Below are positions 5,858 to 48,604 of a DNA stretch of 64,000 bases, one piece after another; positions within the stretch are counted from its first letter, which is position 1; each line of letters opens with the position of its first letter. The position numbers and the translations under genes are program-made. Below the pieces are notes generated by a model. That model saw only the letters and a list, made by a program, of their open reading frames with translations. It searched no databases and was not told the DNA's origin. The stretch is from the NCBI GenBank assembly GCA_019391515.1, contig JAHXQP010000024.1, positions 1 through 64,000 of the forward strand, written 5' to 3'. The stretch comes from Clostridiaceae bacterium (GTDB taxonomy: Bacteria; Bacillota; Clostridia; Tissierellales; Sporanaerobacteraceae).

Positions 5858-6982
5858 TTATTTTGTAAGTCCAGTTCTCCTTATCTTAACATCAGCATGG
5901 ACATTTATATTTAAAGTAGGAAATATTTCATCCCAATCTCCTTCTACCTTTTTCCAAAGATCAGGCTCAAATTTACTTATATGTTCCCCTATACATAAGA
6001 TATCTGCATTATATTTATTTTGAAGTTCTCCTATTATCTTTTCTAAGTCTTTCTCTATCTTATTCTTAACCCTTTTTTCCACTGTTTTTAAAAATTCTTG
6101 ATTAAAAGCGTTGGTATCTCCTTCATATTTATATTCTTGGAGATAGCCTTCGGTAAATATATTTATATCTACATTTATATTTTCATTATCTAGATAAACA
6201 TCTTTTTTACACATGCCATTAGATATTACATAGGAGACTACAGTATCTTTATAATAAGTATCTATTATATCAGACGTAAGATTCCCTTTAGCCAGTGCAA
6301 CTAAACTATTTTCATATTCTCCAAGCCATCCTATCAATTTATAGTCTTTTATAATAGCCGCCCCGGATAGTTTAAACTCGTCTTTTTTAGGTACAGTCCT
6401 AGGAGCCATAGAGACATTAGAAACTTGTAAATCTTTCATAATATCTGAAAAAGTTTGGGCTGTAAATCTTGAAGCTACTTTTTTATTTCTAAGCATACTA
6501 TTTAAATATCCACCTACTACAAGCTCTTGCTCAGTCTTTGTACTCAGAACATCCTTAGCTTTTCCTTGGGCTACAACTATTTCAACCTTCCTATTTATCC
6601 TAGGATCTCTTCCTAATCCATCAAAAAACTCTTTTATTTTATCTGGTTCTTTTAACAATTCTTCTCCTATAACTATTACTTTCATATGTCTAAAAAATAG
6701 AGGTTTATCTAATCTAGTAGTTAGCTGCCTACTACCATCAAAAGGTGTTTTTGCAACGGTAGATTTCATAAATTTAGCTTCTTTTTGGCTTTCACCTTTT
6801 TTTATGGAAGCAATATTCGGATAGACATATGTAATTAAATAGTCGTTTTCTATATTTGGATCTTCGTTCAAATCTACTCCCACCGCTGTGACAAATATTC
6901 TTTCATTTATTTCCATTACATCCCAGCAACCTGTGAGAAAAACTGCCATCAAAGCTATTATTATTATTAAGTATTTTTTCAT
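5858..6982 (-). CDS. gerC: Germinant receptor C subunit, Ger(x)C lipoprotein
   Basis: This 374-residue protein is the lipoprotein subunit of a tripartite spore germinant receptor in the inner spore membrane. It has a signal peptide ending in the lipobox LTGC followed by WDVMEINE, the typical start of the Ger(x)C family. Its ATG overlaps the gerB stop codon (ATGA), so translation is probably coupled. It is the last gene of the operon 2TM gene-gerA-gerB-gerC. The germinant cannot be predicted from the sequence. Confidence 0.92.
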   Translation of the reverse strand: MKKYLIIIIALMAVFLTGCWDVMEINERIFVTAVGVDLNEDPNIENDYLITYVYPNIASIKKGESQKEAKFMKSTVAKTPFDGSRQLTTRLDKPLFFRHMKVIVIGEELLKEPDKIKEFFDGLGRDPRINRKVEIVVAQGKAKDVLSTKTEQELVVGGYLNSMLRNKKVASRFTAQTFSDIMKDLQVSNVSMAPRTVPKKDEFKLSGAAIIKDYKLIGWLGEYENSLVALAKGNLTSDIIDTYYKDTVVSYVISNGMCKKDVYLDNENINVDINIFTEGYLQEYKYEGDTNAFNQEFLKTVEKRVKNKIEKDLEKIIGELQNKYNADILCIGEHISKFEPDLWKKVEGDWDEIFPTLNINVHADVKIRRTGLTK

Positions 6983-8070
6983 GCCCTTTTCCTCCTCTTC
7001 AGAAGGGATACTATAAGTAATATTATCGGCCCTATGATTATGGCAAAAATGGCTAAGTATCTTACCATCATATCCATAGTTGAATACACTTGGCTTAAGC
7101 TTTCAGGGATTAATGATATTATCATCACTATAGGTATAAGAGGCAGTACAAAAAAATTATGTTTTCTAGTATTAAACAAACTAGACAATACAACCCCCCC
7201 TGTATACATTAAAGGTCCCATAGTAGCAAATACTATAAGTACCCAGGTAGCCATCATAATTCCATCTAAATTTTCTATGAAAAATCCTGGTAACTCTATT
7301 TCTCTCATAATAGAAATAGAGGGCCATATTTGTTTTTTTAGTTCATGTATTCCAAATTGGCTAAGGGTTATAAAAAATGTAACTAGATATATAAGGGTAG
7401 TATAAAATATACCAATAAAGCTGCTTTTTAAAGCAGATTTGCTATCTTCCACATATGCTAAAGCTATAAGTATTATTTCAAATCCTACATAGCTAAAAAA
7501 AACAGTTCCTATTCCTTCGGGTATATCTTTTATATTAAATCTAAAAGCAGGGAGTAAATTAGTGAGATCTAGTGTAGGCAATGAAAGTATAACAAAAATT
7601 ATAGTTGATATAGCTATAATATGTAGTATCAAAAAAGCCATTCTAGATATACTTTTAATATCGCCTCTTCCTATATAAGATGTAGCCAAAAGCATTGTAA
7701 ATATTATAACTTCTATTGGTGTGTTTGGCAGAAGATAGGCTTTGATAACCTCTCCAAAAATTCTAACTACAAAGGATAATAAAACCATAAAATAAAGTAA
7801 ATATATAGTACTGAATATTTTAAATAACATATTTCCAACCACTTCTTTTCCATATTCATAAAATATTCTTCCTCTATACATTTCTGCTAATTTGTTCATT
7901 ATATATACAAAGGGTAAGGTTGCTAATCCTCCAAGTATAATAGCAATCCATCCAGCATTATTCATAATATCAGCTATAGAACTAGGTAAGGACAGTATTC
8001 CTACACCTATATTAGTAGTTATAATAAGTGCTTTTAATTGACCATTAGATACCTTACTATGTTCTTCCAT
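6979..8070 (-). CDS. gerB: Germinant receptor B subunit, endospore permease family
   Basis: The 363-residue integral membrane protein has about ten hydrophobic segments and belongs to the amino acid/polyamine/organocation transporter-like GerAB family, which binds small germinants. It begins with a short cytoplasmic stretch before the first helix (LKALIITTNIGVGILSLPSS), typical of GerAB proteins. It lies 9 bp after gerA and overlaps gerC by 4 bp. Confidence 0.92.
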   Translation of the reverse strand: MEEHSKVSNGQLKALIITTNIGVGILSLPSSIADIMNNAGWIAIILGGLATLPFVYIMNKLAEMYRGRIFYEYGKEVVGNMLFKIFSTIYLLYFMVLLSFVVRIFGEVIKAYLLPNTPIEVIIFTMLLATSYIGRGDIKSISRMAFLILHIIAISTIIFVILSLPTLDLTNLLPAFRFNIKDIPEGIGTVFFSYVGFEIILIALAYVEDSKSALKSSFIGIFYTTLIYLVTFFITLSQFGIHELKKQIWPSISIMREIELPGFFIENLDGIMMATWVLIVFATMGPLMYTGGVVLSSLFNTRKHNFFVLPLIPIVMIISLIPESLSQVYSTMDMMVRYLAIFAIIIGPIILLIVSLLKRRKRA

Positions 8071-42732: not shown

Positions 42733-43017
42733 TTAAATCCTTCTAAACTCATCTGTATCTATAACAAAGATTGTAGCTCCTCCTACTTCTACATCTTTGC
42801 TTCCATTATCAACTTTCGTTCCATTACATAGATCTTTTATAGTATCTATAACTTCATCTACCTTTTCAGCTTCAACACCTATTAAAAGAGTGGTATTACC
42901 TGCTTTTAAAAATCCTCCTGTTGAGGCTAGTTTTGTAACCCTATATTTTTTATCCATTAAAGCTTTTACAATTTTTGCTACATCCTTATCTTGAATTATA
43001 GATATTATAAGTTTCAT
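42733..43017 (-). CDS. DarA-like PII-family protein with shortened loop
   Basis: This 94-residue protein is a paralogue of the adjacent DarA. It keeps the core MKLIISIIQDKDVAKIV, YRVTKLASTGGFLKAGNTTL and the final GGATIFVIDTDEF. The stretch between the two halves is about 14 residues shorter, which in DarA forms the large B-loop over the bound nucleotide. I chose the ATG at 43017 after GGGGGATGTATTT. Whether it binds c-di-AMP is unknown. It lies 15 bp upstream of holB. Confidence 0.85.
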   Translation of the reverse strand: MKLIISIIQDKDVAKIVKALMDKKYRVTKLASTGGFLKAGNTTLLIGVEAEKVDEVIDTIKDLCNGTKVDNGSKDVEVGGATIFVIDTDEFRRI

Positions 43018-43035
43018 AAATACATCCCCCTTCAA

Positions 43036-43362
43036 TTAAACCCTAATATATTTTTCTACATCTAATATAAATATAGTAGCCCCACCTATTTTAACATCTA
43101 AAGGATATGGTATATAAGTGTCTCCTGGCATAGTTACAGTCATTAAAGAAGTAGTAATTTCTCTAGTTTTACAAGTATCTTCTATTATATTCAATACATG
43201 ATCTACCTGTTCATCTTCTACTCCTATTAAAAGTGTAGTATTGCCTGATTTTAAAAATCCTCCTGTTGAAGCTAGTTTTGTAACCCTGTATTCTTCTTCA
43301 GTTAAATCCTCTATTAAACCAGGTGCATCTTCATCTTGAACAATAGCAATTATAAGTTTCAT
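43036..43362 (-). CDS. darA: Cyclic di-AMP receptor DarA (PstA/YaaQ)
   Basis: The 108-residue PII-like protein has full family length and the c-di-AMP-contacting segments YRVTKLASTGGFLKSGNTTL and KIGGATIFILDVEKY. DarA binds c-di-AMP as a trimer; its downstream target is unsettled. It sits between tmk and holB as in B. subtilis yaaQ, followed here by a second, shorter copy. Confidence 0.93.
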   Translation of the reverse strand: MKLIIAIVQDEDAPGLIEDLTEEEYRVTKLASTGGFLKSGNTTLLIGVEDEQVDHVLNIIEDTCKTREITTSLMTVTMPGDTYIPYPLDVKIGGATIFILDVEKYIRV

Positions 43363-45461: not shown

Positions 45462-45502
45462 AACAAAAAAGAGTATCAGTTTAATAAACCTGACACTCTT
45501 TT
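45462..45502 (-). terminator. Terminator after csfB
   Basis: AAGAGTGTCAG pairs with CTGATACTCTT on the minus strand and is followed by TTTTTTG. The stem begins at the csfB stop. Confidence 0.7.
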
Positions 45503-45651
45503 AATATATCTTTAAAGATATCCATATATTTTTGATACTGTTCATCTTCAACCCTAGTCTTTGTAATATCATCTAAACATTCTTCACATAAATGGACCTC
45601 TAAAAATTTTATCCCTTCATCTTTATTTTGTTTACAAACTGCGCAGTACAA
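45481..45651 (-). CDS. csfB: Anti-sigma-G factor Gin (CsfB)
   Basis: This short gene encodes 56 residues with two zinc-binding CxxC pairs (CAVC and CEEC) followed by a helical tail (DEQYQKYMDIFKDIL). It aligns with B. subtilis CsfB, which holds sigma-G inactive and redirects sigma-K in sporulation, and lies in the same place upstream of yaaO. The start is a TTG at 45651, eight bases after AAGGAG. Confidence 0.87.
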   Translation of the reverse strand: MYCAVCKQNKDEGIKFLEVHLCEECLDDITKTRVEDEQYQKYMDIFKDILKECQVY

Positions 45652-45751: not shown

Positions 45752-46738
45752 TTAATATTCTAGTCTTATATTATATCCACAATTTGTACATTTGTTATCT
45801 TCAATACCTATGATCTCTATATTATAATTTCTTTCTACTAGTTTTATATTACATTCAGGGCAATAGGTATTAGCATCTGCTCCCCATACATTTCCTATAT
45901 AGACATAGTTCAAATATTTAATTGCTTCGTCTTTAGCATTCAAAAGAGAATCATAGCTAGTTGAAGGAGCATCCATTTTAAAAGCTGGATGATATCTAGT
46001 TAGATGAAGAGGAATATTTTTATCTATACTGGATAGCCATTTTGAAATTTCTCTAATCTTTTCTATGGAATCATTCTTGCCTTCTATAAGGAGGGTTGTC
46101 ACTTCAATTAAAGTTTTTTCTTCAGCCAATTTTATAGTTTCTAATACTGGTGATAGACTACCCTTACATAGTCCTTTGTAAAAATCATCATCTATAGATT
46201 TTAAATCTACATTCATAGCATCTATATAAGGTAGTAACCTCTTTAAAGGTTCTTTTTCTATATATCCATTAGTAATATAGACATTTTTAAGACCTTTACC
46301 TTTTACCTTTTTTGACATATTTAAAATATATTCATACCATATGGAAGGTTCATTATAGGTATAAGATACACCTATAGAAGAATTGGACTTTGCTAGTTTT
46401 AAAATATCTCCATCAGATATTTCTACTGTGACAGGATTAGAATGGGCAATTTCCCAGTTTTGACAAAACCCACATTCTAAATTACATCCAAAGGTTCCTA
46501 TGGAAAATATTTTGCTACCTGGATAAAAATGATATAGTGGTTTCTTCTCTATGGGATCGTAAGCATAGGAAGAAACTTTCCCATAGTTTAAAGTATATAG
46601 TATTCCGTTTTTATTCTGCCTTGCTTTACAAAATCCTAGATTTCCATCCTCTATAATACAGCCATGAGGACAGAGATAACATTTTACCTTTCTATCCCTA
46701 AGTTTTTCATAGTACAATGCTTCTTTAAGTTTTTCCAT
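45752..46738 (-). CDS. amrS: AmmeMemoRadiSam system radical SAM enzyme
   Basis: The 328-residue protein has the radical SAM cluster motif CNLECGFC (Cys85, 89, 92). Extra cysteines surround it: CYLCPHGC and FCKAR at the N-terminus and CPEC/CTNC pairs at the C-terminus, the latter probably binding zinc or another cluster. This is the AmrS type that occurs with MEMO1 and AMMECR1 proteins. Its substrate is unknown. It lies 15 bp after the fused partner gene, so both are probably one operon. Confidence 0.9.
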   Translation of the reverse strand: MEKLKEALYYEKLRDRKVKCYLCPHGCIIEDGNLGFCKARQNKNGILYTLNYGKVSSYAYDPIEKKPLYHFYPGSKIFSIGTFGCNLECGFCQNWEIAHSNPVTVEISDGDILKLAKSNSSIGVSYTYNEPSIWYEYILNMSKKVKGKGLKNVYITNGYIEKEPLKRLLPYIDAMNVDLKSIDDDFYKGLCKGSLSPVLETIKLAEEKTLIEVTTLLIEGKNDSIEKIREISKWLSSIDKNIPLHLTRYHPAFKMDAPSTSYDSLLNAKDEAIKYLNYVYIGNVWGADANTYCPECNIKLVERNYNIEIIGIEDNKCTNCGYNIRLEY

Positions 46739-46753
46739 GGAAAACTCCTCCTA

Positions 46754-48163
46754 TTATGAATGTCTTTCCACTTCAAATCTTTCTATAGTATAATCTTCCT
46801 TTTCATTTATACCTGCTTTTTGAAGAGCTATTTTAATCTGTTCTTCAGGACTAGTTATGCCTTCTAAATTAGGTAAAAGTAATCCCTTTCTAAAGCCCTT
46901 TGAAACTATAACACCATACTTTTCTACATCCAATTTATCTATAGAATCTACTTCTTCTGCTTCTTTTAATATATCTACAGAATATACTAAATCCTTTAAT
47001 TCTTCTTCATATACAACTGGGAATCTAGGATCCCTTGTACCTGCATTTATAGCATTTTCTACTATTTCTTCTGCTATAGAAGATTGAACAGGCTCTATTG
47101 TACCTATACATCCTCTTAGCTTTCCATCTTTTTTGATGGAAACAAATACACCTACTCTTTTGCCTGTTAAATCCTTGCTAAGATTATTAGGAATTTTCAT
47201 CTGTTTTCTGTTTTTTATATAGTATTCTAAACTTTTTCTAGCAAGGGATACATACTCGTCTTCATTTTCTCTTATAATTTTCAGTCTGTTTCTTTCCTTT
47301 TCTTCTAATTTATTATATAATTTTTTATTGTCATCTCTTCCCTTTATATCGACTTTCGCTGTACAATATCCAACTCCAAAAGGTCCTTCATAGGAGTAAA
47401 CTTCAGTTTTTACATCAAATCCATCTAGAAACCCTGACATAATCATTAAAGATCTTAATCCACATTCTCCTGCACTTTCTCCTAAGTTAATATCAAAGGA
47501 AGCTATCGATTCAAAATCATTGTTTCTCAAATATTCAACTATTTTCTTATCAAATACTTTTCCGTCTGATGAATAACTATAAGGTCCTTCATTAGAAAGT
47601 CTATGAGATAAATCTCCACTTGCAATAAATACTACTTCTTCTTTTGAATCCAAAACAATTTGTTGTAAGATGGTTCCAAATCTATACAGTTCTAAAGGTG
47701 ATATAAGTCCATAAGTAATATGAATTAATTCATAGTCTTCATATTCCTTATTTACAAAATATAGAGGAACCAATGTACCATGGTCTATTTCTGTTTCTAT
47801 ACTATAATCTAAAGCAAATTCCTTGTCTATAGGTGCAATGGCTATTCCTTCTTTTCCAGAATTTCTAACAATCTTATTTACTAGAGCTTTATTATTTCTA
47901 AACCTAAATTTTAGATCTTTCCTTCCAAATTTCTTAAAGCTTCCTTGAAGTCTTTCTTCACAAGATATAGCTAAAGCATCGTTAAAAACTGGACCATGAG
48001 GAGTGATTATAATTATAGTCGTTGGTTTCTTTGATTTTATATCTTTTGCTAACTTTTTTACTCCTACAATAGTATTTTTTGCTCCTTTTTCTTCACCTCT
48101 TCCTATTTCTTCAACTATTATTGGTGGATGAGGAAATAGATAGCCCCCTAATAATTTTCCCAT
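46754..48163 (-). CDS. Fused MEMO1-AMMECR1 protein (AmmeMemoRadiSam proteins B and A)
   Basis: The 469-residue protein joins two families. Residues 1-275 are MEMO1-like (class III extradiol dioxygenase fold), with putative metal His residues in FPHP (12), TPHGP (56), IDHGT (128) and GDLSHR (187), and a conserved GECGL (Cys234). Residues about 300-469 are AMMECR1 with the RGCIGTIEP motif (350-358). Human MEMO1 binds iron or copper; AMMECR1 biochemistry is unknown. With the adjacent radical SAM enzyme all three parts of the system are present in two genes. It has no export signal. Confidence 0.92.
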   Translation of the reverse strand: MGKLLGGYLFPHPPIIVEEIGRGEEKGAKNTIVGVKKLAKDIKSKKPTTIIIITPHGPVFNDALAISCEERLQGSFKKFGRKDLKFRFRNNKALVNKIVRNSGKEGIAIAPIDKEFALDYSIETEIDHGTLVPLYFVNKEYEDYELIHITYGLISPLELYRFGTILQQIVLDSKEEVVFIASGDLSHRLSNEGPYSYSSDGKVFDKKIVEYLRNNDFESIASFDINLGESAGECGLRSLMIMSGFLDGFDVKTEVYSYEGPFGVGYCTAKVDIKGRDDNKKLYNKLEEKERNRLKIIRENEDEYVSLARKSLEYYIKNRKQMKIPNNLSKDLTGKRVGVFVSIKKDGKLRGCIGTIEPVQSSIAEEIVENAINAGTRDPRFPVVYEEELKDLVYSVDILKEAEEVDSIDKLDVEKYGVIVSKGFRKGLLLPNLEGITSPEEQIKIALQKAGINEKEDYTIERFEVERHS

Positions 48164-48354: not shown

Positions 48355-48528
48355 TCATTTCGTTTTGTAATGGCTGGGACTTGCTTGAAACTTTGAAGAA
48401 TTGATAGAAGATACTTTGCCTTTCTTCTTACTTCTTGAAAGTTTATAATCCTTTTCTAAATCTCTAAATGCATAGGTTAAGAAAATAAATATGCATATTA
48501 GAATAAGAATAGAAATAATGTATTTCAT
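48355..48528 (-). CDS. Small single-helix membrane protein, unknown
   Basis: The 57-residue product has one membrane helix (about residues 3-20) and a basic, Ser/Lys-rich tail. I recognise no family. The ATG at 48528 follows GGTGGTGAACTATCAT and a terminator follows the gene, which support a real gene. It is the only gene between the MEMO operon and rplY. Confidence 0.5.
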   Translation of the reverse strand: MKYIISILILICIFIFLTYAFRDLEKDYKLSRSKKKGKVSSINSSKFQASPSHYKTK

Positions 48529-48604
48529 ATGATAGTTCACCACCAGTGCAACACATTATTTCTATACATTATATCAAAAACTAATATCTATTACTATAAA
48601 TTAT

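Follow-up and report, generated by a model that had tools for sequence, protein, structure and literature searches.

The two genes at positions 45752-48163 of the window (the whole 64,000-nucleotide stretch of a Clostridiaceae bacterium contig that was analysed) are a known gene set, the AmmeMemoRadiSam system, in the form that is common in the Bacillota. Both open reading frames lie on the minus strand, exactly where the initial annotation had placed them, and are separated by only 15 bases, with the fusion gene first in the order of transcription. The downstream gene (45752-46738, minus strand, 328 aa) encodes AmrS, the radical SAM enzyme of the system, and the upstream one (46754-48163, minus strand, 469 aa) is a fusion of a LigB/MEMO-superfamily domain with an AMMECR1 domain (AmrB-AmrA). 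All three parts announced in that annotation are indeed present: the AmrS frame scores 310.1 bits against TIGR04337 (cut-off 220), and the fusion matches Pfam LigB (PF02900; residues 7-266, 3.6e-48; domain at 47366-48145, minus strand) as well as Pfam AMMECR1 (PF01871; residues 305-467, 7.7e-46; domain at 46763-47251, minus strand). With respect to the curated definition of the system (TIGR04335, TIGR04336 and TIGR04337), the A part (133.4 bits against TIGR04335, cut-off 99) and AmrS are both over their cut-offs and their genes are adjacent on the same strand; the B part is below that of TIGR04336, and it is joined to A in one protein, the usual situation in the phylum. The genome itself (2.84 Mb in 32 contigs) has one AMMECR1 match, one LigB match and one AmrS above cut-off, and a profile search of it gave no match to Pfam Memo. 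An AlphaFold model of the fusion, built with 30 aligned fusions, has a mean pLDDT of 93.8 and a pTM of 0.84. The fusion of Anaerosalibacter bizertensis (L006) is 92% identical over the 469 residues, and there AmrS and the flanking genes follow in the same order with no notable difference.

How ordinary this arrangement is becomes clear from a sample of 199 genomes drawn evenly from the phylum, in which 152 have a match to AMMECR1, 147 an AmrS over cut-off, 160 a LigB match and 30 a Pfam Memo match (26 of these over cut-off). We considered 150 listed AMMECR1 places, one per genome, the places in G011 and G156 lying outside this listing. If an open frame of at least 380 aa is taken as a proxy for fusion, 136 of the 150 places qualify; 142 have an AmrS above cut-off no more than 3 kb away in the same orientation, with a median gap of 40.5 bases, downstream in 139 cases and upstream in 3. 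The parts are thus encoded together at most places of the sample, as they are in the window, and the conserved linkage that had been proposed is borne out. A tree of the AMMECR1 domain with 51 rows (42 fused and 9 split, with the broken gene of G100 counted among the split ones) requires 5 changes between the fused and the split state. Well-supported branches force at least 3 of these changes; 18 of the 48 inner branches of the tree lack resolution. Where the genes are truly split (8 loci), the two of them and AmrS are still side by side. These counts and the tree indicate that fusion is the usual, though repeatedly changed, state; the set had been described as compressed into two genes, and while there are indeed two genes, the compression is nothing special. 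Since fusion and splitting have recurred with adjacency maintained, it is nevertheless likelier that the fused domains act together, which was the first half of a further suggestion, the second being that they form a complex with AmrS.

The exceptions to the linkage are of several kinds. In G168 and G104, where the fusion is near a contig end, and in G072, the best AmrS match is below cut-off and the place is not among the matches listed; in G143, G001 and G029 AmrS is on another contig. Finally, G177 (L051) and G023 (L068) have a fusion in which every key residue is present, yet their genomes contain no AmrS that passes the cut-off, the best match in G177, a genome of one contig, having an E of 4.0e-11 and G023 having none. 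Haloferax volcanii has an AMMECR1 match and none to TIGR04337, LigB or Memo, and these three patterns indicate that parts of the system can exist apart. They also bring to mind the possibility that the fusion has a function of its own, such as the handling of iron or copper, and that AmrS is linked to it by genome neighbourhood only. The fusions of G177 and G023 would fit such a division, as would human MEMO1, for which binding of iron or copper and a modulating effect on iron homeostasis are described (PMC11081632). Nevertheless, AmrS is adjacent at nearly all of the listed places in a sample that was evenly drawn, and we regard this possibility as unlikely. Two of the loci deserve a separate remark: in G100, which has no Pfam LigB match, the locus L056 (about 6601-7541) has a B domain without its middle (query residues about 48-179) and retains AMMECR1 and AmrS, and in G065 (L015) an extra frame between the fusion and AmrS resembles, by eye, a HicB-type antitoxin.

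The N-terminal part of the fusion had been called MEMO1, and here the initial annotation, correct about the fusion with AMMECR1, was less fortunate in its label. With 24.6 bits this part falls narrowly short of 26, the cut-off of TIGR04336 (the curated model for AmrB), and for this reason we file it as a LigB-type counterpart rather than as a member of that family; the fusion gave no match to Pfam Memo (PF01875) at E <= 0.001 and scores 56.3 bits against the dihydroxyphenylacetate dioxygenase model, far below its cut-off of 316. Its place in the LigB superfamily (PF02900) is secured both by the Pfam match and by fold Z-scores of 26-33 to TK2203, APD, DesB and LigAB. The fold comparison of the N-terminal half ranks TK2203 first (PDB 5hee; Z 33.0, rmsd 3.0, 260 residues aligned, 21% identity), ahead of aminophenol dioxygenase (29.1), DHPA dioxygenase (27.9), DesB (27.3), LigAB (26.1) and human MEMO1 (7kq8; 20.6, 15% identity). 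Both TK2203 and MEMO1 are unfused; the former has Pro-Asp opposite Glu233-Cys234 of the window protein in the HMM alignment, and the latter belongs to the same superfamily even though the window protein has no Pfam Memo match. The gap between dioxygenases and MEMO1 in this ranking is not a clean one, because E. coli JW3007 (2pw6), a relative of the dioxygenases, scores level with MEMO1 (Z 20.2). Nor is the LigB/Memo border a hard one: of the 26 Memo places above cut-off in the phylum sample, 13 are separate genes and 13 are LigB-type B domains like the present one, which makes the border soft. The best label is a LigB-type B domain of the LigB/MEMO superfamily, "MEMO1" being a loose one. As for the separate Memo-family proteins, 10 of the 13 (L058-L067) were inspected and have a hydrophobic N-terminus, by eye probably that of secreted proteins or lipoproteins, and share a conserved LD-P motif with no invariant Cys. 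The C-terminal domain is more straightforward, as it matches the stand-alone AMMECR1 proteins PH0010 (1vaj; Z 21.1) and MM0484 (1zq7; Z 18.5) with 35% identity, both deposited as hypothetical proteins.

We surveyed the conserved residues in 33 sources (the window and L006-L037), of which 30 hold a complete fusion, the others being L007, which is split, L020, which starts inside the gene, and L035 (G100), which is broken. Extended to 51 B domains from distinct genomes, the survey found H12, H56, D127, H128, D184, H187, D205 and C234 to be invariant in all 51, whereas E233 is Glu in 47 and Gln in 4. The AMMECR1 cysteine C352, within the invariant LRGCIGT motif, is retained in all 43 fusions and all 9 separate AMMECR1 frames, a count that omits one false alignment of the split L007. 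In human MEMO1 the iron ligands are H49, H81 and C244, with C244 in the place of the extradiol dioxygenase Glu, and no dioxygenase activity could be shown for the protein (PMC11081632). The H12, H56 and C234 of the window are likely to be the counterparts of H49, H81 and C244 and thus a putative metal site, near which, by analogy to MEMO1, H128, D184 and H187 would lie. In a profile alignment E233, the alternative third ligand, falls opposite the Glu ligand of APD (counted as E251) with C234 beside it; of these two neighbours C234 appears to be the better candidate, being invariant where E233 is not. A comparison of profiles with clostridial Memo proteins ended before the Cys position, and a phmmer search with one such protein gave a weak match to MEMO1 that did not reach C244. 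Another residue, E229, was discarded as the third ligand: it is Glu in 30 of the 30 first fusions but in only 41 of the 51 B domains, the remainder having D, S, G, N, K, Q or I.

Considering that the closest characterised folds are the class III extradiol dioxygenases (Z 26-29), and that E233 aligns with their Glu ligand, one might suppose that the domain is an oxygen-dependent dioxygenase that cleaves aromatic rings. This we hold to be very improbable. The Cys next to E233 is invariant, whereas the Glu itself is replaced in 4 of 51 domains. The distribution of AMMECR1 also argues against it: a strong haem-copper oxidase is a feature of 13 phylum genomes, all without AMMECR1, whereas 152 of the remaining 186 have AMMECR1 (Fisher p 1.7e-9, uncorrected for kinship), a contrast that depends on a threshold (E < 1e-140) picked after seeing the table and on 13 genomes from only 8 families. 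With any match to the COX1 model the figures are 15 of 32 genomes, against 137 of 167 without one, and the genome of the window has no COX1 match. The link to anaerobes is not a general one, however, since 2 of the 5 AMMECR1-bearing controls (Haloferax volcanii and Sulfolobus acidocaldarius) and those 15 phylum genomes combine AMMECR1 with a COX1 match. Overall, oxygen-dependent ring cleavage seems unlikely in this phylum.

The extra Cys groups that had been noticed in the radical SAM enzyme are real and, in part, strictly conserved. Besides the radical SAM cysteines C85/C89/C92, AmrS has an N-terminal set of four (C20, C23, C27, C37) and a C-terminal CxxC...CxxC ribbon; in the 30 of 33 sources that gave an AmrS (all but L010, L017 and L020), the first two sets are found in 30 of 30 and the ribbon somewhat less often (C293 and C296 in 26, C317 in 25, C320 in 24). 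Four proteins end before the ribbon, which suggests that it is dispensable, and a further one is cut by the end of its locus. From the C85/C89/C92 motif we infer that AmrS cleaves SAM. Outside its own family, the best matches of AmrS are YjjW and the pyruvate formate-lyase activases, at no more than 75.1 bits against a cut-off of 250.2 (TIGR04041), and the PADLOC matches to viperin are weak only. The nearest solved folds of its radical SAM core are those of pyruvate formate-lyase activase (3c8f), which has 18% identity and 245 residues to the 328 of AmrS. The activase presumably lacks the N-terminal and C-terminal cysteine sets of AmrS.

These resemblances could mean that AmrS is an activase of a glycyl radical enzyme, but 310 bits for TIGR04337 against 75 for the best activase model make this scarcely credible. 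Moreover, the strong Gly_radical gene of the same genome adjoins another, weakly AmrS-like frame (contig C31), there being a second, weak Gly_radical match on contig C1; and, among 14 controls, the 5 with AMMECR1 lack PF01228 while the 3 with PF01228 lack AMMECR1. On the score, the layout in the genome and the pattern in the controls, this reading was dropped. A different lesson could be drawn from the same kinship, since the activating enzymes that it most resembles beyond its own family, by sequence and by fold, act on proteins: AmrS might be a maturase of the fused protein, making a radical-based post-translational change in, for example, the AMMECR1 LRGCIGT loop, in the manner of activases and sulfatase maturases. 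The tight pairing of AmrS with the fusion and the invariance of the RGCIG loop would suit such a role. Nevertheless, the fusions of G177 and G023 keep their key residues where AmrS is not over cut-off, Haloferax has an AMMECR1 with no TIGR04337 match, and modelling of AmrS with the fusion gave no confident interface, so that we consider a maturase rather unlikely.

That modelling joined AmrS and the fusion in a single AlphaFold chain, whose parts are well folded (pLDDT 92.3) and connected by a disordered linker (pLDDT 52); the pTM is 0.59 and, with only 7 of 45 alignment rows paired, neither an interface nor an arrangement emerged with confidence. Given how few rows were paired, the model is weak evidence against a complex. 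The complex with AmrS proposed in the initial annotation is thus unsupported by this joint chain. In combination with the fusions of G177 and G023, the missing interface also argues against a tight three-way partnership.

The best explanation that we can offer, and we do so tentatively, is that the two genes encode a set that works without oxygen: AmrS would initiate radical chemistry, and the fusion would process what results by means of its putative metal site and its Cys. AmrS would reductively cleave SAM to a 5'-deoxyadenosyl radical, and this radical would activate a C-H bond in some compound that is common in cells. Burroughs et al., in 2019, reportedly named two candidate substrates, an RNA nucleobase and a prenyl compound. 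What follows could be carried out by the fused protein, again with no need for oxygen: a metal at H12, H56 and C234 (MEMO1-like, or with E233 as the alternative), probably Fe(II), may bind and polarise the intermediate, with H128, D184 and H187 as putative acid-base residues and the AMMECR1 C352 as a nucleophile or thiol relay. The fusion, in such a scheme, would hold the two later active sites together.

The neighbours of the pair offer little guidance in this matter. Upstream within the window are genes for ribosomal L25, BofA and a CwlD-type amidase, and downstream those for Gin, an Orn/Lys/Arg decarboxylase, thymidylate kinase, two cyclic-di-AMP receptors, DNA polymerase III delta', PSP1 and a methyltransferase (the thymidylate kinase and the delta' subunit being named by eye). 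In a comparison of 33 loci, some of them near relatives and some short, and with shadow ORFs among the neighbours of L046 and L077, the commonest neighbours were the CwlD-type amidase (14 loci), L13 (9) and S9, TruA and an ABC ATPase (8 each), followed by a diadenylate cyclase domain (6), YbbR, a CbiQ-type transport protein and one unannotated cluster (5 each), and the arginase family and a phosphoglucomutase-family enzyme (4 each). These recurrent neighbours are housekeeping genes and suggest a core role, but they point to no particular pathway or substrate. A promoter scan gave 21 promoter-like sites, shuffled sequences giving 17.5 (sd 4.0), and we claim no excess. Some features of the neighbourhood may be recorded in their own right. 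The gene for Gin, the inhibitor of sigma-G (45481-45651, minus strand), encodes 56 aa from a TTG start (PF10764, 1.4e-11), and the row that it heads resembles, we presume, the csfB-tmk-darA-holB region of Bacillus. The cyclic-di-AMP receptor family genes (42733-43362, minus strand; PF06153, 2.3e-46 and 6.1e-33) form a tandem pair, apparently a duplication. Between L25 and the fusion (about 48355-48550, minus strand) is a 62-aa ORF, with a start that is hydrophobic by eye, which is common to A. bizertensis.

The initial annotation attributed human relatives to all three families, and this stands for AMMECR1 and MEMO1, which are presumably the only two with human relatives. AMMECR1 is linked to disease (PMC5502304). 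The same annotation's remark that there is no established reaction agrees with our partial survey of the literature, which included PMC11081632, PMC7159879, PMC11926856 and, for a gene-expression list only, PMC7701253; it yielded no solved reaction for prokaryotes, which does not prove its absence. A broader and quite unlikely proposal is that the MEMO-type His-His-Cys iron site arose as the partner of a radical SAM enzyme in chemistry that needs no oxygen, and that it still has this role in the anaerobic Bacillota, treating a radical-derived intermediate together with the AMMECR1 Cys. In that case human MEMO1 and AMMECR1 would be what is left of a single ancient enzyme after the loss of its radical step. 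The locus itself is an ordinary one, but it makes a tractable test bed, as the three families are encoded by a pair of small neighbouring genes open to joint expression and joint deletion, and the invariant C234 and C352 are precise targets for mutation. Two of the three families have human relatives, and the chemistry of the set is worth more than this single instance.
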